A stretch of DNA of 34,893 nucleotides from a virus: IMG/VR virus record IMGVR_UViG_3300025009_000281, positions 1 through 34,893 of that record; one strand, written 5' to 3'. The notes beneath the pieces were generated by a model, which was not told where the DNA came from, did not search any database, and saw only the letters and a program-made list of their open reading frames with translations. The number at the start of each line of letters is the position of its first letter. The first letter of the stretch is position 1. Shown one piece after another: positions 12,520 through 34,893 of this stretch. The position numbers were made by a program, and so were the translations under genes.

Positions 12520-12884
12520 TATATTTCTCCATCTTCCAAATTAATGCCTACTAACTTCAATAAATATTCTCTATATTCATCATTAGTAGCTTGTCTAAGA
12601 AATTTTTTTAAAGAGCGTGCTTGAGTTTTATAAGTAAAGAATATAAAATCCGATTTCTTATATTCTTTATCTCTAATAGACATATTTTTTTTAAATATAA
12701 ATGGAATTGCTTGACTATCAAGTGCGATAACTGTTTTATTATCAGTTATCTTTCTAAATTTGTCTTTATCTTCATTAAGTAAATTTAAAAGAATAGGATG
12801 GTTGATATATATTACATCCCCAGCCTTTCTCTTTTCGCCACACCATTTGGTGGTTTCTGTTACAACAAAATATCCTGCACTCAT
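12519..12884 (-). CDS. Small protein of unknown function between cassette and connector
   Basis: A 121-residue protein, Lys-rich, with a short N-terminal beta unit (GYFVVTETTKWCGEKRKAGDVIYIN) and helical remainder. It overlaps the methyltransferase gene by 4 bases and the DUF1320-like gene by one base, so it is translated together with both. Small proteins with an 'x-G-D-V-I' strand are common near phage connectors. I could not assign a family. It may be structural rather than part of the enzyme cassette. Confidence 0.6.
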   Translation of the reverse strand: MSAGYFVVTETTKWCGEKRKAGDVIYINHPILLNLLNEDKDKFRKITDNKTVIALDSQAIPFIFKKNMSIRDKEYKKSDFIFFTYKTQARSLKKFLRQATNDEYREYLLKLVGINLEDGEI

Positions 12885-13675
12885 AAAATCACCTCCTTAA
12901 TTTTCAAAATACATCTTAAATGTTGTTTCCACCTTAAATCATGATGCCTTTGGTAAAGTTTCTTACTTGTAAGTGTAAAGAAACTATTGCCATATTTCCA
13001 ATTATTCCATGAATCTTTTATACCTTCAATACAATAAGAGAAATCATCAATAAACCAACCTGTTTTTTCAAATAATTCAGCCCACCATATAGCAGGTTTA
13101 GCTATTTTGTGTGTTTTATCAATATTATATGCGGGGACATTATAGGTATTCCCAACTCCCAATGGAATTATTGCAAATAAGACATATCCTTTATCACTCA
13201 TTAGATTTAATAATTCATTTATTCTATCTTCTGGTATATGTTCTAATGTATCTTTAGATACAATATATTCAAAATGTTCAATATCATCAAATGGTATAGG
13301 GTCTTTTTTTGTAGAAAGTCTACAGTATTGTTTTATTTCTTTATCTACTTGAGATATTGCATATTCAGATATATCGCATCCCCAAGCCTGCCTATATAGC
13401 ATCAATCTAAAAGCTCTCACTAAGTAACCTTTTGACGAACCAAAATCTAAAATTTTATCCTGTCTTCTTATACCAAGATGGTCTACCATAGCCATTGCCA
13501 TAGGCGTGGTTAATTCAGGTAACCATCTATACATAGAAAAACAGGAAATGCCTTTTTCAAACCCTCTCTCAAAATAATCCTCTCCATATTCCTCCTCTGT
13601 AATAGAAGGATGATTGAATTCATAGTAATTTAAATTCTCTCTTTTCACAATCTCAGCCAAGCTGTTCTGTTGCAT
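12881..13675 (-). CDS. Class I SAM-dependent methyltransferase
   Basis: A 264-residue protein. Motif I is ILDFGSSKGY at residues 75-84, the glycine loop that binds S-adenosylmethionine. A later acidic/His stretch (SKDTLEHIPEDRINELLNLM) matches the post-I/motif IV region of Methyltransf_11/23-type enzymes, which act on small molecules or sugars. The N-terminal ~50 residues carry an aromatic/acidic segment (EEEYGEDYFERGFEKG). It overlaps the radical SAM gene by 31 bases. Substrate unknown; a sugar or a radical SAM product is a reasonable guess given its neighbours. Confidence 0.8.
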   Translation of the reverse strand: MQQNSLAEIVKRENLNYYEFNHPSITEEEYGEDYFERGFEKGISCFSMYRWLPELTTPMAMAMVDHLGIRRQDKILDFGSSKGYLVRAFRLMLYRQAWGCDISEYAISQVDKEIKQYCRLSTKKDPIPFDDIEHFEYIVSKDTLEHIPEDRINELLNLMSDKGYVLFAIIPLGVGNTYNVPAYNIDKTHKIAKPAIWWAELFEKTGWFIDDFSYCIEGIKDSWNNWKYGNSFFTLTSKKLYQRHHDLRWKQHLRCILKIKEVIL

Positions 13676-14598
13676 TTATTACATGGCTCCATTATTTGTT
13701 TAGTTTTTTCTTGTGACTTAATTTCATCTCCTAAATAATGCTTTGGTAATTCAATTCCTTCTGGAAATTCAAATGAATTTTTAAATAAATGTCTGATTCT
13801 CGTTAATGCTTCGCAATTCCATATTCTTGTCAAATCCTCTTCTTTTTCTATTTTCCCAAAAGTGCATTCCCCCTGAACATCATCAGTGCAACATATACAT
13901 ATAGTTCCATCCCATAAAACATGAGGAAGTATGAATGGATAATCACATACCGATGGAGTTAGACATCCAGTATCATAGCCATCTTCACCAGCCATCTCTT
14001 TAACTAAATCCAACCAGGGATTCATATTCTTAATTACATGAATATTATCATCGGGTAACATTTGTCTGAATCTTTCAACAAATTCTTTCTCAATTCCATT
14101 ATGAACATATTTTGTTTTTATCAATGCTATATGCTTATGCACTCTTTCTATGCTGCCAAGTTCATGGTATAATTCAAGAAAGTTTTTTATCATTAATTCC
14201 ATTTTCACTTCCTGGAATTCACCTTTAGAATTAAAGGGATGATAAGTCATTGCAAGCGTTACATCACATTTAGAATCTTTAATAACCCTTACAACTCTTT
14301 TAATTTGTTCAGGATCTGCAACTAAACCTGTAAATAAATCAAAGTGGACATCCTTTTTAAGAGAACATAAATATTCAATAAATTCTGGTAAATATGAATA
14401 TAATAAAGGCTCACCTAAACCATTAAGATTAAATCCTGCATAGTAATTATATTTAAGTGTCTCTAAAGCTATAAGTTTTGCAAGTTCAAAATCCATCATT
14501 CCAACTTTTCTTGTCATATACCGTCTTGGACATTCGGCACAATCTAAACCACAAGCATTAGTTAATTCTAACTGTATTGCTTCAATCTTGTGTTGCAT
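13645..14598 (-). CDS. Radical SAM enzyme with SPASM-like C-terminus
   Basis: A 317-residue protein. CGLDCAEC (Cys16, Cys20, Cys23) is the CX3CX2C site for a [4Fe-4S] cluster and SAM cleavage; GLGEP at 60-64 is the SAM-binding motif that follows. The C-terminal region carries Cys212, 218, 234, 236, 237, 245 and 262, with DGTICICCTDD and 'FGKI...IWN', as in SPASM or twitch auxiliary cluster domains. A last CNKC pair is at 306-309. SPASM proteins modify peptides or carbohydrates. The gene overlaps both neighbours (17 and 31 bases), so one transcript makes all three enzymes. Confidence 0.88.
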   Translation of the reverse strand: MQHKIEAIQLELTNACGLDCAECPRRYMTRKVGMMDFELAKLIALETLKYNYYAGFNLNGLGEPLLYSYLPEFIEYLCSLKKDVHFDLFTGLVADPEQIKRVVRVIKDSKCDVTLAMTYHPFNSKGEFQEVKMELMIKNFLELYHELGSIERVHKHIALIKTKYVHNGIEKEFVERFRQMLPDDNIHVIKNMNPWLDLVKEMAGEDGYDTGCLTPSVCDYPFILPHVLWDGTICICCTDDVQGECTFGKIEKEEDLTRIWNCEALTRIRHLFKNSFEFPEGIELPKHYLGDEIKSQEKTKQIMEPCNKCNRTAWLRL

Positions 14599-15382
14599 AA
14601 GGTCTCCTTTCTATTAATACGATTAAATCGTTTTCCCATAATTTTGTCTTAATCCATTCAGGATTATTTTCTAAAAATTCATTTAAAGCTTGTTTAATAT
14701 CAGGAATAGTTGCATCATCAAATATAATTGCATCAGTCATCTTGCTACAAATTGCTATTTCCTTTTTTGTATGTTCGTAAGTATGAATAGTATCTAGAAA
14801 AATTAATTCATAATATAGGGATAAATTCCCTGAATTAAGCATTGCAATATCATCTCCTTGCCAAAAAGTCCACCAACTAACATCTTTATACCTGACCCAT
14901 GTTTTACCTAATGGGTGCCTATCAACACTATCCAGCTTGCCACCTTGTGTTTTACACCAATAATGAAATAACGAAGTAGATATACCACTATCTCCACCAA
15001 CACCAAGTTCTAAGATTGAATATGGTTGCACTTTTGCTAAGCCAGCCATATATGCAATAGCAGATGGGTATTTCATTAACGAAAGATGCCAGAATAACTC
15101 TATTTCTGATTGAAAATATCTGTTATCCAATGCCTTACCTTTCTCTAAAATATTCGGTGTATTTTGTTCATAATGAATAAGGTCAGGATAATAAGCATTA
15201 ATAAGAGAATCATCTACCGTTGATAAGAATGGTAAATCTTGCCAACTTTCTTTTTCTTGTAGTTTAATTTCATCAGGTATAATAGGGGATTGTTCTTTTA
15301 ATAATTCATAATGCATTCTTAAACCTGCCTCAAATCCTTCTTGAATACTACCATCAGGATATAAGCATTTATAATTAGCCAT
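14582..15382 (-). CDS. Methyltransferase of the Methyltransf_24 type
   Basis: A 266-residue protein. SILELGVGGDSG at residues 122-133 is the SAM-binding loop. LDSVDRHPLG is the next acidic strand. LIFLDTIHTYEHTKKEI followed by IIFDDAT matches the 'D-x-x-H-x-Y' plus late Asp pattern of the Methyltransf_24 family, also seen in CmcI-like proteins. Family members act on sugars and small hydroxylated compounds. The N-terminal 100 residues are an extra region (DGSIQEGFEAGLRMHYELL). Ribosome site gagg lies 6 bases before the ATG. Confidence 0.75.
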   Translation of the reverse strand: MANYKCLYPDGSIQEGFEAGLRMHYELLKEQSPIIPDEIKLQEKESWQDLPFLSTVDDSLINAYYPDLIHYEQNTPNILEKGKALDNRYFQSEIELFWHLSLMKYPSAIAYMAGLAKVQPYSILELGVGGDSGISTSLFHYWCKTQGGKLDSVDRHPLGKTWVRYKDVSWWTFWQGDDIAMLNSGNLSLYYELIFLDTIHTYEHTKKEIAICSKMTDAIIFDDATIPDIKQALNEFLENNPEWIKTKLWENDLIVLIERRPYATQD

Positions 15383-15437
15383 TAATGCCTCGCATATGAC
15401 GATATTTTTCCATTCTATCTTGCCCTACTGGAATTAA

Positions 15438-16400
15438 TCACTCTATCCTCTTGTTTAATTGATTTGGATACTTTAATATCAAATTTTCGGTCTTACCCCT
15501 TATGTCATCATCTACAACCTGCTTCCATATCCTATCTTCTCTTTCCCACCAGAAATTCTCGTATTTCAAGACAAATCCATCATTTACATCGTGTTTAACT
15601 CTGTCCCATGCTCTTGTTCCACCCCAAAAATGGATATAATAAGGATCTGCATAACCTCCATAATAAGTTCCTTCTGGCACATGATCGGGAAATGGGAAGT
15701 ATCTATGATCTACAGGTGCTTTAATTAAATTATATCCTTGTTCTTCAAGCCAATAATATAGTTGTTGCCCTGGTTCATACCAACCTGCATTTAATCTACC
15801 ATTATCAGAACCAGTCTTTTGCTTAAATCCTCGTTTCTCGGCAAATGCTCCAGTCCACGATAAGTAACTTTGATCCATTTCTCTTATATCCATTGTCTGA
15901 TTAAATCCTTCTCCAAAATACATTGTATAATCGTGATTATCCATGCAAAGTTTATTGAATTCTTGTACAGGTTTAGTTCTATATAATGTTGCAGATGGAT
16001 TAATATAATTATGCACATATCCGCCTTCATCCCAATAATAGCCAACTGCCACATTCTTTTGCTCTCCTTCTAAGAACGAAAGATACCAATCAAGCCATCC
16101 ATCTTTACATGCCATACTATCTGTCTCTGCTGTAAATATATATTCAGTATCAATAAGTTCTATTGCACAATCTAAAGCTGAAGCATGGAATCTATTTGGT
16201 TTCCAATTATCTACTACCTTTACTCCTTCACCTAATTTCGTCTCAGTTATTCCTCTAATACTGTTATGCCATGACGAATTATTAACAATCATAATATCAT
16301 AATCAACATTATTCTTAGTTTTCTTAAAACTTGACACAACCACTTGTGTCCATTTCCATGTATGTCCATGTGGTATTACTATTGTTACTTTTTTATTCAT
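15438..16400 (-). CDS. Glycosyltransferase family 2-like (GT-A fold)
   Basis: A 320-residue protein. VTIVIPHGHTWKW at the start and DIMIVNNSSWHNS are the nucleotide-sugar side of a GT-A fold. FHASALDCAIELIDTEYIFTAETDS gives the acidic metal site at residues 92-95 (E-T-D-S instead of the usual D-x-D). The C-terminal half is rich in Trp and Tyr, suiting acceptor binding. It overlaps the GT4-GT9 gene by one base. After its TGA stop the same frame stays open for 20 more codons and would overlap the next gene by 8 bases, so the stop may be recent. Donor and acceptor unknown. Confidence 0.78.
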   Translation of the reverse strand: MNKKVTIVIPHGHTWKWTQVVVSSFKKTKNNVDYDIMIVNNSSWHNSIRGITETKLGEGVKVVDNWKPNRFHASALDCAIELIDTEYIFTAETDSMACKDGWLDWYLSFLEGEQKNVAVGYYWDEGGYVHNYINPSATLYRTKPVQEFNKLCMDNHDYTMYFGEGFNQTMDIREMDQSYLSWTGAFAEKRGFKQKTGSDNGRLNAGWYEPGQQLYYWLEEQGYNLIKAPVDHRYFPFPDHVPEGTYYGGYADPYYIHFWGGTRAWDRVKHDVNDGFVLKYENFWWEREDRIWKQVVDDDIRGKTENLILKYPNQLNKRIE

Positions 16401-18460
16401 TAATTACCTCCTTTTTCTAATGCGTAATTTATTGCTTTTATAACATCCGCTGGTGGAATAGTGTTAATGCAATAAGGCGGACGGCAATCCATTCTATTAC
16501 CAAAACAAGGACCCAAAATAGGGCATACCCTTACATAGTCTGGTTCAACCCCTATTGTCATACGATAAGGTTGCGTTACTCGTGCTGCACCCGTCCCATA
16601 AAGGACTACTGATTGAGTGCCGACACTTGCGGCACAATGCGATATAAATGAATCAATGCAGATTACAAGTTTTGCTTGTGCCAGGATAAAAGCAGTTTCT
16701 CTAAAAGAGAGTTTCCCTCTTAAATCAAGAGATACTCCTTCTGCATATATGTCTCCATTACCTCCAACTTGAACAAAAGGAATATTCTTAAAATGTGTTA
16801 TAACTTCTGCAAATCTACTATAGACACGGAAAGGATGTCCTCCCGATGTATGGATTGCAAAGAATTCTTTGTTACCATATTTAAAATCATTAACGATTTT
16901 GGGATATATTTTTGGTTCAGTCCAAGATACATTCAGCATATCGGCATATATCCTATATAATGGAACATCAGCAGTTCCCCAATTTCCCCTCAAAACAGGT
17001 TCATGTATCATATACATTTTCTTATATTTATTTAAAAGATTAACATTCCAATCTACAACTTCATCTATATCAGGGTTACCTTCCAAAATGTCTTTGTATA
17101 TAGATTTAGTCATGTATACCAATTTTGATTCAGGGAATTTAGCTTTAACTCCTGGTATTGCAGAAGTCCCAAGCAAGACATCTCCTGCGGTTTCATCTAA
17201 GGCATATAATATATCGTTTTCATTAGTGATTTTAGGCACTACAAAAATAGGTTTTATCTTTTCAATATTAAATACTTCCCTAAATCCTTTCATAACATTA
17301 ATAATATGAAAATCTGTTAATATTAATTTAAAGCCTTCTTCTACTCTTGGGTTTAGCTTACCATCAGCAATATTTATAGCTTTTTCAACCATGTCATCTA
17401 TATCAACAATAGGTCTTGCACTGCCATCATTACCAGGGAAATGATGATAAGTCTGAATTTTAATCGGCACTCCAGCTTTTTCTAGAGTCTCGCTTAAAGC
17501 AGAATGGTCAGGCATTAATACGGGAGTTTTTGTTGCAAAAGCATATAATTTAGGTAACCAGAACCCTTCAGCAGTTGATGTAGTTATCAATAAGTCAAGG
17601 CAATTATATATCTTATTCATTTGTTCCGTAGTAACAAGATATGGATTAAAACCCTCAATATTCGGTGATTTAATAACGCCATGCTTCAATACATACCAGT
17701 TTAACATTTGCCCTAAGTTATATCCCATTGCCCATCTATCCACCATTGGATTATCAGCATTTAATCTCGTATGTAAATATAAGACAGATGGTCTTTCATA
17801 TTTCTTTTCAAATAAGTTATAAAATTGTAGAGTTCTTGGGAAGTTTTTCCTATAACTATGATGATTAATATTGCCTATTATATAAGAATCAGGATTTACA
17901 CCCAAAACATTAACTTTAAAATCTGTTAATTGGTCTTTAATAATAGGATAATATTCATCAGGATTAACGCCTATTGGTATAATTTTCATTTTTTTCTTCA
18001 ATTCGGGTGCTACTCTCAATATCTGTTTAAATCCATATTCAGAATAAACTAAAATTATATCTACATCTCTTATATAGTCAGCATAATCTCTTAATATTGG
18101 TGCATCTATTGCTGTATAAGTAATAATAACAGGATATTTTAAATGTTCATGTAAACTTCTGATTAATTGAGGCATAAATCCTAATTCAAATATATCTATC
18201 TGTAAAAAAATTACATCAAAGTTTGCTCTAATAGCATATTCAAAAAATTTAGCTCTCCCTAATGGATCATTGTGGGGGTTAGGTAATGCTGGTATAATAA
18301 AATATTCCAAACTTCTATTATCAATATAAAATTCATTAATTCCAAAAAATGTAAAATCAAATTCTTTCCCTAACGAATCGGCTATGTTTTTCATAACAAT
18401 ACCCCTACCAGTCGGAGCTGTCGGAGTATCGGAATAGCATAAAATCTGTTTTTTTGCCAT
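16400..18460 (-). CDS. Fused GT4-like plus GT9-like (heptosyltransferase-type) glycosyltransferase
   Basis: A 686-residue two-part protein. Residues 1-390 form a GT-B enzyme of GT4 type: PTGRGIVMKNIADSL at 16-30, a GNINHHSYRKN region at 196-206 and TTSTAEGFWLPKLYAFATKTP at 283-303. In that last motif Glu288 is present, but the position of the second glutamate of the E-x7-E motif is Tyr296. Residues 414-686 resemble GT9 heptosyltransferases: LLGTSAIPGVKAKFP, IHTSGGHPFR and CIDSFISHCAASVGTQSVVLYG with Asp603, Ser604 and His608. Four cysteines (646, 652, 659, 664) end the protein. Ribosome site aaggaagg precedes the ATG. It heads the cassette. A two-step glycan extension is inferred. Confidence 0.82.
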   Translation of the reverse strand: MAKKQILCYSDTPTAPTGRGIVMKNIADSLGKEFDFTFFGINEFYIDNRSLEYFIIPALPNPHNDPLGRAKFFEYAIRANFDVIFLQIDIFELGFMPQLIRSLHEHLKYPVIITYTAIDAPILRDYADYIRDVDIILVYSEYGFKQILRVAPELKKKMKIIPIGVNPDEYYPIIKDQLTDFKVNVLGVNPDSYIIGNINHHSYRKNFPRTLQFYNLFEKKYERPSVLYLHTRLNADNPMVDRWAMGYNLGQMLNWYVLKHGVIKSPNIEGFNPYLVTTEQMNKIYNCLDLLITTSTAEGFWLPKLYAFATKTPVLMPDHSALSETLEKAGVPIKIQTYHHFPGNDGSARPIVDIDDMVEKAINIADGKLNPRVEEGFKLILTDFHIINVMKGFREVFNIEKIKPIFVVPKITNENDILYALDETAGDVLLGTSAIPGVKAKFPESKLVYMTKSIYKDILEGNPDIDEVVDWNVNLLNKYKKMYMIHEPVLRGNWGTADVPLYRIYADMLNVSWTEPKIYPKIVNDFKYGNKEFFAIHTSGGHPFRVYSRFAEVITHFKNIPFVQVGGNGDIYAEGVSLDLRGKLSFRETAFILAQAKLVICIDSFISHCAASVGTQSVVLYGTGAARVTQPYRMTIGVEPDYVRVCPILGPCFGNRMDCRPPYCINTIPPADVIKAINYALEKGGN

Positions 18461-24341: not shown

Positions 24342-25316
24342 TTATACAAACTCCGCATGTTTAATAGGATATAATGCACTTCTTAATAATCTATTGTTTT
24401 CTTCAAAAACGCATTTATCGCAAGTTATACCATTGATTGGTTTTACTTCTTTTGAATAAATACCCTTAGCTTTTTGCCAGAAATACCATCTATAGGGAGC
24501 ATTAAATCGGACTTCAGAATCACTATTTAAAACTACAGAAGAACAAGGGAAAACATACCCGTCTGTATATAAGTAAGGCTTGAAATAACCTACAAGACAT
24601 TGCCCCCCCTGTTGAGGATTTTTGGCTTGATAGAAAAATCCTATATCTTTGTGTGGTTCTATAAGCTTTTGTATTCTAAAATGTTCTTCTTTCATTTGCC
24701 TTATGGAATTTCTACAGTTTGGCACTACGCGGACATAATCAGGTTTATATTGCAGAGTATATTCAACAATCCTGTTTAATCTACCACTTAAATCTATTAT
24801 ATTATCAGCTACATAACTAAAACCAAGCGTAGTATCACGAGGAATTTTGGGAATTAACAGTTGTTTAGGATATATATAATCAATGGTATTCATTGATATT
24901 CTTATCCATATTAGTTTCGGTAGAATATCTTGGATAGCCATCAACATAGTCCCATTTGTAATAAGTCCTATTTTTAACCCTTTTTGTTGACAATATGTTA
25001 CAAATTCTCTAAAGCGACTATAGAGAGTCGGTTCGCCGCCACCTGTTATTTCTATTGTTTCTATGCCTAATGCAATAAAAATATCAACCGCCGCAATTAA
25101 TTCATCATAATCCCATTCTCTGTTTTTATTTCTATTTGCAACAGAGCAAAAACTACATTTTAAATTACATTTATCTGTTAATGCAACCTGCAAAGTAATA
25201 GGGGACGCCTTCTTTGTCTCTTGTAATATTTTCATTCTATCCAAATGTTTAAGATATTTTATGCCAGTGCTTGTATAAACATCATCTACTTTAATTTTGA
25301 CTCTATACGCTAACAT
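24342..25316 (-). CDS. Radical SAM enzyme next to the portal gene
   Basis: A 324-residue protein. CNLKCSFC (Cys50, Cys54, Cys57) is the cluster site and TGGGEP (91-96) the SAM motif, with NGTM near 121. C-terminal cysteines at 240, 258, 299 and 302 suggest an auxiliary SPASM- or twitch-like cluster. The N-terminal 40 residues (MLAYRVKIKVDDVYTST) are extra. It overlaps the HTH/zinc gene by 14 bases and abuts the portal. Placement inside the packaging/head genes is unusual for a metabolic enzyme. Substrate unknown; peptide or nucleotide modification are both possible. Confidence 0.85.
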   Translation of the reverse strand: MLAYRVKIKVDDVYTSTGIKYLKHLDRMKILQETKKASPITLQVALTDKCNLKCSFCSVANRNKNREWDYDELIAAVDIFIALGIETIEITGGGEPTLYSRFREFVTYCQQKGLKIGLITNGTMLMAIQDILPKLIWIRISMNTIDYIYPKQLLIPKIPRDTTLGFSYVADNIIDLSGRLNRIVEYTLQYKPDYVRVVPNCRNSIRQMKEEHFRIQKLIEPHKDIGFFYQAKNPQQGGQCLVGYFKPYLYTDGYVFPCSSVVLNSDSEVRFNAPYRWYFWQKAKGIYSKEVKPINGITCDKCVFEENNRLLRSALYPIKHAEFV

Positions 25317-29441: not shown

Positions 29442-30626
29442 ATGATTAATAAGGCATACAAATATAGGATTTACCCCAACAAAAAACAGCAAGAATTGCT
29501 TGAAAAACATTTTGGCTGTGTCCGTTTTGTCTTTAATTGGGGGTTAGGTGAAAAGATAAAAGCATATCAGCAGGATAAAAAAAGATTAAACTGTTTTGAT
29601 TTAATAAATGAATTAGCGGAATTAAAAAAAGAAAAAGATTTTGAATGGTTGAGTAAAGTAAATAGCCAGTCGCTTCAGATGTCATTAAGAAATTTAGACA
29701 ATGCTTTTACAAACTTTTTTAGAAAACAAAATAAATTTCCTAATTTTAAGAGTAAAAAGCGTAATATCAATAGTTTCCAAATACCGCAACATTTAAAATT
29801 GTCAAATAAATTGGATATACCAAAAGTTAAGGGTATAAATATAAAACAACATAGAAAATTAGAAGGTAAGATAAAAACAGCTACTGTCAGTAAAATGCCA
29901 ACTGGAAAATACTATATTTCTATTTTAATTGAACAAGATAAAGAATTACCTAAAAAGAGAAAGATAAAAGAAAAAACTACTATCGGGATTGATTTGGGCA
30001 TTAAAACATTTGCCACTATTTCTGACGGTAGAAAAATAGATAATCCAAAGTATTTGAAAAATAGTTTAAGAAAGTTGAAAAGACAACAGCGATGGTTGAG
30101 TAGAAAAGTTAAAGGAAGTAATAACAGAAAGAAACAAATTAAAAAAGTTGCTTTAATGCACGAAAAAATAAGTAATCAAAGGTCGGACTTTTTAGACAAA
30201 TTTTCATATCAGATAACTCACGAAAAACAAGTGAATACTATCGCTATTGAAGATTTGAATGTAAAAGGAATGGTTAAAAATCATTGTCTCGCTCAAGCAA
30301 TATCAGATGTAAGCTGGGGAGAATTTAGACGACAACTTGAATACAAAACTGAATGGTATGGGAAAAATTTGCTTGTAATCGGCAGATTTGAAGCAAGCAG
30401 TAAGACTTGTATTTGCGGTCAAGTCAATCAGGAATTAAAACTTTCGGATAGAGAATGGATTTGTAAAGAGTGTGGAACAAAACACGATAGAGATGTGCTT
30501 GCCGCAAACAACATTAAAAAATTTGCTTTAATACCCGTGGAACGCGGGAAATTCACGCCTCTGGAGAGAACAGCATTAGCTGGCTCGTTGAAAGAGGAAG
30601 CCTCTTGGTCTTTAGCCAAGAGGTAG
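29442..30626 (+). CDS. tnpB: RNA-guided nuclease TnpB (IS200/IS605 OrfB)
   Basis: A 394-residue protein. N-terminal KAYKYRIYPNKKQQELLEK and FNWGLGEKI are the usual OrfB start. RuvC residues are Asp184 (GIDLGIKTFA), Glu270 (IAIEDLN) and Asp351 (KHDRDVLAANNI), all present, so the nuclease should be active. The zinc site is Cys323, Cys325, Cys341, Cys344, with C-x-C instead of C-x-x-C in the first pair. Length is typical for compact TnpB. The last codons and the TAG stop lie in the right-end hairpin, as in elements where the 3' end of tnpB also encodes omega RNA. Confidence 0.93.
   Translation: MINKAYKYRIYPNKKQQELLEKHFGCVRFVFNWGLGEKIKAYQQDKKRLNCFDLINELAELKKEKDFEWLSKVNSQSLQMSLRNLDNAFTNFFRKQNKFPNFKSKKRNINSFQIPQHLKLSNKLDIPKVKGINIKQHRKLEGKIKTATVSKMPTGKYYISILIEQDKELPKKRKIKEKTTIGIDLGIKTFATISDGRKIDNPKYLKNSLRKLKRQQRWLSRKVKGSNNRKKQIKKVALMHEKISNQRSDFLDKFSYQITHEKQVNTIAIEDLNVKGMVKNHCLAQAISDVSWGEFRRQLEYKTEWYGKNLLVIGRFEASSKTCICGQVNQELKLSDREWICKECGTKHDRDVLAANNIKKFALIPVERGKFTPLERTALAGSLKEEASWSLAKR
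30601..30623 (+). repeat. Right-end hairpin of the TnpB element / omega RNA 3' part
   Basis: Stem cctcttgg / ccaagagg, loop tctttag, overlapping the end of tnpB; followed by tagttcac. It is the counterpart of the left-end hairpin and likely part of the scaffold of the guide RNA. Confidence 0.65.
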
Positions 30627-33175: not shown

Positions 33176-33225
33176 GGCAATTCATCTCCTGTTTAAAAAC
33201 AGGAGTTTTCTTGCCTGAAATTCTA
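33176..33225 (+). terminator. Hairpin repeat with T-tract (terminator or mobile repeat)
   Basis: Inner stem ctcctgttt / aaacaggag (9 bp, loop aa) followed by TTTTCTT, with outer arms ggcaa / ttgcc. As a plus-strand terminator it would end the zinc-ribbon transcript. Layout ggcaattcat-stem-ttttcttgcc also resembles end hairpins of IS200/IS605-type elements. Confidence 0.6.
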
Positions 33226-33254
33226 TAATATTAAGTAAAAGAGGTGAGAAAGTT

Positions 33255-33707
33255 ATGTTCACGATAAATTCAGAAATACAACAAATCATCAAAGAAATCA
33301 GGAAAGCACCTAATGCAGATTTCTACTTACGAGATATTAAATATCAATGCGATGAAGAAGGTTGTTGGGATACAGGATTAATTAGTATATATAATCCAAA
33401 GACAAAATATTCTTTAACTTATGCCTGTCATTGTGAAAGAGGATTCAATTATCAATTATCTATTTTACATTGGGAAATAGAGAATTATTACAAAAGACCC
33501 TTTTTAAACTTCCCCAGACCAATGGTATGTATCAGAATCTACGATCCTATATCTGGGAAACATAATTTCGCATGTAAAAGAACTTGTCCTGATGAAAGAA
33601 AAGAATTATGTTTAGACTTTAATCAATCTATTGTTCCTATGCTTTATAAAAAATATTGGACAAAAACAAAAAAATACAACAAAAAAGATGATGATATACC
33701 TTTTTAA
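33255..33707 (+). CDS. Cys-rich protein ending in an SSB-like DDDIPF tail
   Basis: A 150-residue protein with ribosome site gaggtgag. Cysteines at 32, 37, 58, 60, 92, 107, 111 and 119. The first four (C-x4-C, C-x-C after a WDTGLI strand) resemble the zinc unit found before the ATPase domain in DnaC/DnaI-like loaders, but no ATPase follows. The last residues are a basic linker, KKTKKYNKKDDDIPF. The final six equal the E. coli SSB C-terminal tip that docks on SSB partners such as PriA, RecO and primase. No OB fold is seen, so it is not an ordinary SSB. A replication-recruiting or SSB-mimic role is inferred; the initiator gene is next. Confidence 0.65.
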   Translation: MFTINSEIQQIIKEIRKAPNADFYLRDIKYQCDEEGCWDTGLISIYNPKTKYSLTYACHCERGFNYQLSILHWEIENYYKRPFLNFPRPMVCIRIYDPISGKHNFACKRTCPDERKELCLDFNQSIVPMLYKKYWTKTKKYNKKDDDIPF

Positions 33708-33723
33708 AAAATTAAATCTCTCC

Positions 33724-33752
33724 TTGACATTAATTAAATAACGGATAATGAT
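33724..33752 (+). promoter_or_regulatory. Promoter before the leader RNA and initiator gene
   Basis: Perfect TTGACA (33724-33729) with AATGAT after 17 bases (4 of 6 consensus bases); start near 33759. A second TATAAT at 33772-33777 lacks a good -35 box. Confidence 0.5.
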
Positions 33753-33758
33753 AAAAAT

Positions 33759-33872
33759 TTAGGATGGTATTTATAATATCCAGAGAAAATCAAATACAAC
33801 GCAGAAAAACACAAATCACCAATATATTTGTGGAAGAGACCAACCATCCGCTCGTTTTCTGCGTTGCTTTTT
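33759..33872 (+). ncRNA. Structured leader RNA / attenuator of the initiator gene
   Basis: A 12-bp stem caacgcagaaaa / ttttctgcgttg (33797-33808 with 33855-33866) is followed by CTTTTTT, a terminator shape, just before the ribosome site aaaggag. Inside the 46-base loop lies cacaaat / atttgtg (33810-33816 with 33826-33832). The loop bases accatcc (33843-33849) can pair with ggatggt (33762-33768) upstream, giving a pseudoknot. Could be an attenuated leader or a free ~110-base RNA controlling replication. Not matched to a known RNA family. Confidence 0.6.
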
Positions 33873-33884
33873 TAAAGGAGTAAT

Positions 33885-34703
33885 ATGAGATACCAAAAAA
33901 TATATACTCAAATATGGCAGGATGAAAAATTTACAAAATTAGATATTGATTCTCAAATTTTATTTCTTTATTTGCTTACTTCTCCTCATTCAAATGCAAT
34001 TGGCTTTTATTCCCTTCCAATAGGGTATATTCATGCTGACTTATATTGGTCAATAAATAAGGTTAAAAAAAAACTTACCCAACTTATTCAAAAGAATTTT
34101 ATATTATATGACGAAAAAAATTCTATTATACTTATCAAAAATTATTTTAAGTTTAATCCGATTGATAATCAAAATCTTTTTATCTGTGCTATTAAAATTT
34201 TAAATAGTCTACCAAAAAACTCTTTAATTTCATATATCAAACCATTTATTGAACCTCTTTTTAATAAATATCAAAGCCCCTACCCTAGCCCCTTCAAAGC
34301 CCCTACCCTAGCCCCCCCGAACTCCGAAGCAGTACCAGAAACAGAAACAGAAACAAAAGAATATATATACCCCCCTGTATATAAAAAAAATCCTTTAAAT
34401 CTCCAAAATAAAAAAAAATACGGAGAATTCCAAAATGTCTCACTCACAAATATCGAATACTCTAAACTTATCGACAAATTCTCAGAACCTATAACTAAAG
34501 AATTCATAGAACAACTCAGCCAATATATCGCCTCTAAAAATAAAAAATATTATTCACATTACGCTACTCTCCTAACATGGATGAAAAAATCCAACGCTTC
34601 TAACATAAATGATTATATCCAAAAAAAAGTAGACAATTTTAATACCCATCTAAAAAAAATTCCCAATAAAAACTCTCAAACAATAAAAAAATCTGATGTA
34701 TAA
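33885..34703 (+). CDS. Phage replication initiator (winged-helix plus C-terminal domain)
   Basis: A 272-residue protein with ribosome site aaaggag. Residues 1-115 look like a winged helix (YTQIWQDEKFTKLDIDSQILFLYLLTS split: IWQDEKFTKLD, then SQILFLYLLTSPH) with a later LIQKNFILYDEKNSIILIKNYF strand/helix. A flexible Pro/Glu-rich linker spans 128-168. The C-terminal domain (KKYGEFQNVSLTNIEYSKLI, then YYSHYATLLTWMKK) is a helical unit common in DnaD-like and lambda O-like phage replication proteins. It likely binds the origin and loads helicase. Linker DNA carries GC-rich direct repeats. Its function name is inferred from layout and context. Confidence 0.78.
   Translation: MRYQKIYTQIWQDEKFTKLDIDSQILFLYLLTSPHSNAIGFYSLPIGYIHADLYWSINKVKKKLTQLIQKNFILYDEKNSIILIKNYFKFNPIDNQNLFICAIKILNSLPKNSLISYIKPFIEPLFNKYQSPYPSPFKAPTLAPPNSEAVPETETETKEYIYPPVYKKNPLNLQNKKKYGEFQNVSLTNIEYSKLIDKFSEPITKEFIEQLSQYIASKNKKYYSHYATLLTWMKKSNASNINDYIQKKVDNFNTHLKKIPNKNSQTIKKSDV
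34272..34315 (+). repeat. GC-rich 21-bp direct repeat inside the initiator gene (candidate origin)
   Basis: Two identical 21-base copies (34272-34292 and 34295-34315, starting caaagcccctaccctagccc) with a 23-base period, so each copy is read in a different frame. Very GC-rich for this genome, followed by AT-rich DNA (34355-34425). Lambda has its origin repeats in the linker of gene O in the same way. Confidence 0.7.
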
Positions 34704-34893
34704 CCTATCAAAGCTAACGATAGTAAAACGAAAGAAGTAAGATTAATATAACCCTACTAACAAAATATAAAAATCCAACCATAAGCCTCTTCGATACCTT
34801 AAAAACAATTTCATAAAAATTTCGAAAAATTTAATCGATTTCTATAAAAACTTCGAAAAAATTTGATCAATAAAATAAAAACTTCGAAAAAAT
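34704..34893. other. Non-coding end region with a 31-bp repeat array
   Basis: No coding frame was recognised. Three copies of ataaaaa-t/c-ttcgaaaaa start at 34813, 34844 and 34875, exactly 31 bases apart, with the palindrome ttcgaa in each; the last one is cut by the window end. A weaker ttcgat at 34790 is in phase. Could be iterons or repressor operators. Confidence 0.65.

Follow-up and report, generated by a model that had tools for sequence, protein, structure and literature searches.

An orphan, cysteine-rich phage protein ending in the SSB tip DDDIPF, with the same tip on other non-SSB phage proteins

An SSB-type tip at the end of a phage ORF

What does the C-terminal tip of SSB do on a phage protein that is not recognizably an SSB? 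The SSB tip is among the best-studied bacterial protein-docking peptides, yet it has been treated as a property of SSB. The question arises from an ORF at positions 33255 to 33707 (+) of the window, i.e., the whole stretch of 34,893 nucleotides of viral DNA analyzed here. Terminase, Mu-like portal, and tail tube genes mark the virus as a tailed phage, of which a 34.9-kb fragment is all that is known. The ORF, with an ATG start and a TAA stop, encodes 150 amino acids (aa) and is preceded by a ribosome-binding site (GAGGTGAG, 33241-33248, +) that is a good match at a suitable distance from the ATG. Its third-codon-position GC is low, as in the adjoining genes.

The C terminus of the protein is YWTKTKKYNKKDDDIPF followed by TAA, the final residues being KYNKKDDDIPF, and the codons of the terminal hexapeptide DDDIPF occupy positions 33687 to 33704 (+). 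E. coli SSB (SSB-Ct, MDFDDDIPF) has the same last six residues, also at a free C terminus. The exact SSB tip described in the original prediction therefore exists at the true C terminus (...KKDDDIPF, then stop), as does the basic linker that had been placed before it, a short Lys/Tyr-rich segment of ca. 18 residues (IVPMLYKKYWTKTKKYNKK, 33633 to 33686, +) that connects the body to the tip. The pI of the whole protein is 8.7. Thus, one feature of SSB is present, the acidic tip ending in PF at a free C terminus, while another, a long disordered linker leading from the domain to the tip, is absent. The linker of SSB is long, disordered, and neutral, whereas the one found here is short, basic, and Lys rich, and no SSB/OB domain was detected in front of it.

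Such a tail might arise by coincidence where a genome is AT rich and Lys, Asp, and Ile codons are plentiful, and the collections searched contain no orthologue to display its conservation. However, with the composition of the window, the chance of DDDIPF is ca. 2.5e-8 per ORF end. The window contains one DDDIPF-stop (0.00 expected from shuffles), and among its ORFs of at least 60 codons, none besides 33255-33707 has an SSB-like tip. Within 2.9 million viral contigs, the DDDIPF-stop DNA pattern was found in at least 120 stretches and the stricter K-[KNDE]-DDDIPF-stop in 24. The scrambled tip DIDPDF was never found in this collection, and DIDDPF was found five times, two of them at the end of ORFs of >100 codons that belong to a single protein family. 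Because scrambled tips of the same composition are essentially absent, chance is a very unlikely reason for an ORF to end in DDDIPF. The tip of the 150-aa protein is almost certainly not a chance product, and we regard coincidence as extremely improbable.

Body of the protein and neighborhood of the gene

Translation of 33255-33707 confirmed the eight cysteines predicted for the body (residues 32, 37, 58, 60, 92, 107, 111, and 119), which form two groups of four. Cluster A, C32-x4-C37-x-DTG-x16-C58-x-C60 (33348 to 33434, +; pattern found once), is a probable zinc site, and cluster B, C92-x14-C107-x3-C111-x7-C119 (33528 to 33611, +), is a possible second one. The spacing of the cysteines is compatible with zinc coordination, and the body is probably a zinc-binding one with two structural sites.

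Searches for relatives were empty. Sequence searches with the 150-aa protein against Pfam, PHROG, NCBIfam, and PDB gave nothing credible, and tblastn found no relative in 50,697 phages (E values of up to 10) or in 72,556 plasmids. Degenerate-peptide scans of the viral contigs and of ca. 85,000 genomes recovered no relative except on a second contig of the same virus; this sole other copy belongs to a second assembly that is 99.9% identical. When the exact Cys/DTG spacing was used as a pattern, 15 other contigs matched, all by chance and none as a homologue, and 384 genomes from the class of the metagenome-assembled genome (MAG) with the nearest TnpB (see below) gave weak noise only (best E value of 1.2e-4, to a long ORF).

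The original prediction had seen no OB fold in the body and had considered a divergent SSB as one possible reading. The hhalign comparison with 12 SSBs aligned residues 138 to 150 alone, that is, the last 13, which are the tip. The absence of an OB fold is supported to the extent that these residues are the only ones to fit an SSB profile; the single-sequence AlphaFold2 model (mean pLDDT of 39) is too poor to judge the fold. The divergent SSB is disfavored, as no OB or SSB profile matched the protein. Judged by its sequence, the 150-aa protein is an orphan and not recognizably an SSB. A related possibility is a noncanonical ssDNA-binding protein, in which the Cys-rich body would bind ssDNA without a recognizable OB fold and the tip would act as it does in SSB. 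The basic pI and the adjoining replication initiator agree with this, as do the many unannotated tip-bearers that, among the matches listed, fall in PHROGs called single-strand DNA-binding. Nevertheless, PF00436, gp32, SSB_1, DUF669, and the PHROG SSBs gave no match, the hhalign alignment to SSB spans the tip alone, and two Cys clusters with a short linker are unlike SSB, making this explanation quite unlikely.

The gene had also been predicted to lie directly before the replication initiator, and it does: 177 bp farther along the same strand, the following gene encodes a DnaD-like helicase loader/replisome organizer (33885 to 34703, +; phrog_1701, E = 3.7e-27). Just 3' of the helicase loader are three exact iterons (AAAAAYTTCGAAAAA, 31-bp spacing; 34815 to 34891, +), cut by the contig end, which are likely the replication origin. 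The tip gene is within ca. 1.1 kb of this likely origin. A terminator-like hairpin (33186 to 33205, +; a consensus match only) separates the ORF from a Zn-ribbon gene upstream. On the other side, in the interval that precedes the helicase loader, are the promoter-like sites TTGACA-17-AATGAT and ATGATA-18-TATAAT (33724 to 33777, +), the count of which is not above that of shuffles. Directly before the ribosome-binding site of the helicase loader, a stable 12-bp hairpin is followed by a T run (33797 to 33873, +; z of -3.2); this element had no match in Rfam and could be a terminator or a regulatory leader. With terminator-like and promoter-like elements flanking it, the tip gene may have a transcript separate from that of the helicase loader. 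No similar gene was present upstream of two relatives of the helicase loader (L004 and L005).

The surrounding plus-strand genes are accessory (NYN domain and glycosyltransferases). Several radical-SAM, methyltransferase, and glycosyltransferase genes were also seen among the structural genes (window 12881-18460 and 24342-25316). A TnpB gene at window 29442-30626 is 82% identical to a copy in a Patescibacteria MAG, the next best match being in Methanosarcina, a likeness that could be a clue to the host lineage or to recent transposition. Patescibacteria were considered as the host on the basis of this identity, but transposons move and no host is claimed. The SSB of the same MAG ends in ...IDIKDIPF.

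The tip on other phage proteins and in DUF6511

In order to place the tip in context, all tip-bearing ORFs among the viral-contig matches listed were translated, and 127 were scanned. Pfam SSB was matched by 34 of the 127, and a further share of the tip-bearers among the matches listed belonged to PHROGs called single-strand DNA-binding. DDDIPF also ended, again among the matches listed, four SF2 helicases (L063, L097, L101, and L105), two VapE-like proteins (L009 and L015), an AEP-TOTE primase (L007), a DnaB-type helicase (DnaB_C; L131), a clamp loader (L018), a sliding clamp (L094), an ERF annealase (L045), a CAP12-TIR protein (L054), and a DUF6511 protein (L056). The TIR protein (L054:4873-5748) is of the CAP12/Pycsar type, a defense-type protein with the end DFDSFDDDIPF, and its gene is downstream of apparent phage tail and lysis genes and a Dam-like methylase. 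Another contig encodes a small orphan phage protein of 76 aa with four cysteines and the end SSKKDDDIPF (L026:3963-4193).

Relatives of the L063 helicase in cultured phages had SSB-like tips in five of eight cases, with divergent linkers, a fraction biased upward by the choice of three of the eight because the match reached their C terminus. The tipped relatives end in FDDDIPF, FEDIPF, FEEIPF, DDEVPF, and EDDLPF; since the remaining three lack the tip, it is dispensable in related helicases. The four contig helicases named above and those of phages JG054, CRP-901, CRP-902, HD01, and RHph_TM3_3_14B are phrog_16 SF2 helicases with SSB-like tips. These helicases (e.g., that of Pseudomonas phage JG054, ...FDDDIPF) resemble the 150-aa protein as non-SSB tip-bearers, here in cultured phages, but differ from it in being large enzymes of a known class and in lacking the tip in some relatives. 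A similar patchiness was seen in phrog_1811 (75 residues), with the tip present in those IMG/VR members that the tip pattern had picked out (L036, L050, L061, L093, and L142) and in Pelagibacter phage HTVC033P and absent from the cyanophage and other relatives read, a distribution suggesting either lineage-specific gain or lineage-specific loss.

The conserved case came from DUF6511 (PF20121), an uncharacterized family. We searched 398 genomes of one phylum (Pseudomonadota), found the family in 32, and read 32 loci, 30 from Pseudomonadota genomes and two from a Shinella plasmid record (L238-L269). A terminal [DE][IV]PF was present in 27 of these 32 divergent members, all of them different in sequence, and the N-terminal part contains Cx2C...Cx3C in some members. 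Besides the Pseudomonadota genomes, the family occurred here in one cultured phage and one viral contig (L056:8850-9353). The two phage members are situated amid recombination/replication genes, the neighbors in L056 being ATPase, exonuclease-like, helicase, and primase-like genes (identities assigned by eye). The 150-aa protein did not match the DUF6511 Pfam profile above its cutoff, hhalign gave a probability of 0.7%, and by sequence the two are not homologous. Both are small and have Cys clusters (in some DUF6511 members) and comparable ends, [DE][IV]PF and DDDIPF, but there is no similarity outside the tip, and the helical region of DUF6511 and its Cys spacing differ. DUF6511 thus shows the same design conserved in nature, a small non-SSB phage-type protein with Cys clusters and an SSB tip in a recombination/replication neighborhood.

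The idea that the tips on non-SSB proteins are annotation artifacts was rejected, as an uninterrupted reading frame spans domain and tip; it is also contradicted by the 27 DUF6511 and five helicase tails, which are alike despite divergent linkers. Because the same end is carried by many non-SSB phage proteins and by DUF6511, DDDIPF looks like a portable docking motif. That the tip of the 150-aa protein is a real SSB docking motif, as first proposed, is well supported by the counts in the collection compared with scrambled tips and by this partly Cys-containing family with the same end. There is perhaps an even chance that the SSB tip serves phages quite generally as an interchangeable docking tag. 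Replication and recombination proteins and even defense-type ones, all unrelated to one another, as well as small Cys-rich adaptors (the 150-aa protein and DUF6511), would each have acquired the peptide, and SSB-interacting enzymes of the host or the phage would assemble on them without SSB.

A possible adaptor near the phage origin

Our preferred reading, with a probability of roughly 0.5, is that the 150-aa protein, without being an SSB, serves the phage as an adaptor on which SSB-tip-binding enzymes dock close to the phage origin; zinc, partner, and recruitment are what we infer. The Cys-rich body, probably with two structural zinc sites, would be anchored at the phage replication module, either on DNA or on a phage partner. 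The free C-terminal DDDIPF, on its short basic linker, would enter the conserved pocket that receives SSB tips in replication and recombination enzymes of the host or the phage (PriA, RecQ, RecO, RecG, RadD, DnaG, ExoI, and the like are candidates), and the docked enzymes would be brought to, or activated near, the phage origin. An SSB-tip pocket recognizes its ligand by the side chain of the terminal Phe, the alpha-carboxylate of that residue, and Asp side chains (PMC10238739), and the 150-aa protein presents every one of these determinants, namely, a terminal Phe, a free carboxylate, and upstream Asp. When PriB was given the SSB C-terminal domain, both its ssDNA affinity and its stimulation of PriA increased (PMC8509808); therefore, such a tail can function outside SSB. 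This laboratory chimera, PriB-SSBc, is comparable to the 150-aa protein in carrying the SSB C-terminal domain on a non-SSB protein, with stronger action on PriA (PMC8509808), but it is engineered, and PriB itself has an OB fold.

The same tip could instead serve host takeover. A flood of SSB tips would block the SSB pockets of RecQ, RecO, ExoI, and PriA and shut down host replication/repair or the nucleases that attack phage DNA. A small gene with apparently its own transcription, an exact host-type tip, and accessory genes adjacent on the plus strand (NYN domain and glycosyltransferases) would suit such a competitor. However, the KD of RadD for an SSB-tip peptide is ca. 5 uM (PMC10238739), and monovalent tips of micromolar affinity should, we infer, lose to tetrameric SSB. 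Furthermore, the tips in the survey are mostly on phage replication/recombination enzymes, where recruitment is more sensible. We consider competition unlikely, yet still a serious rival. Of the two roles first proposed, hijacking or blocking of the host SSB hub, the survey favors the former (recruitment) because other tip-bearers are phage replication/recombination enzymes, although the same results do not separate the two.

A last alternative is that the tip is a degradation tag, which as a ClpXP target would set a short half-life. In some Streptococcus mutans strains, ClpXP degrades proteins with the LPF end of SsbA, and GFP-DDDLPF is a substrate of this protease in S. mutans UA159 (PMC5143411). 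The effect was absent in E. coli, S. gordonii, and S. sanguinis, and an altered tripeptide impeded degradation (PMC5143411), while the 150-aa protein has IPF, not LPF. A tag of this kind is very improbable.

Returning to the adaptor, the SSB tip itself is known, but apparently neither its presence on phage proteins other than SSB nor its retention in DUF6511 has been described; a literature search of incomplete coverage, which does not prove novelty, found no account of either. The general pattern of tip-bearers is more interesting than the 150-aa protein itself. If phages add the tip to helicases, clamps, primases, annealases, and Cys-rich adaptors, a short C-terminal string would predict which orphans plug into the host replication/repair hub. 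If this is true, tail removal would be a direct and cheap test for many unannotated genes, and DUF6511 would gain a testable role.
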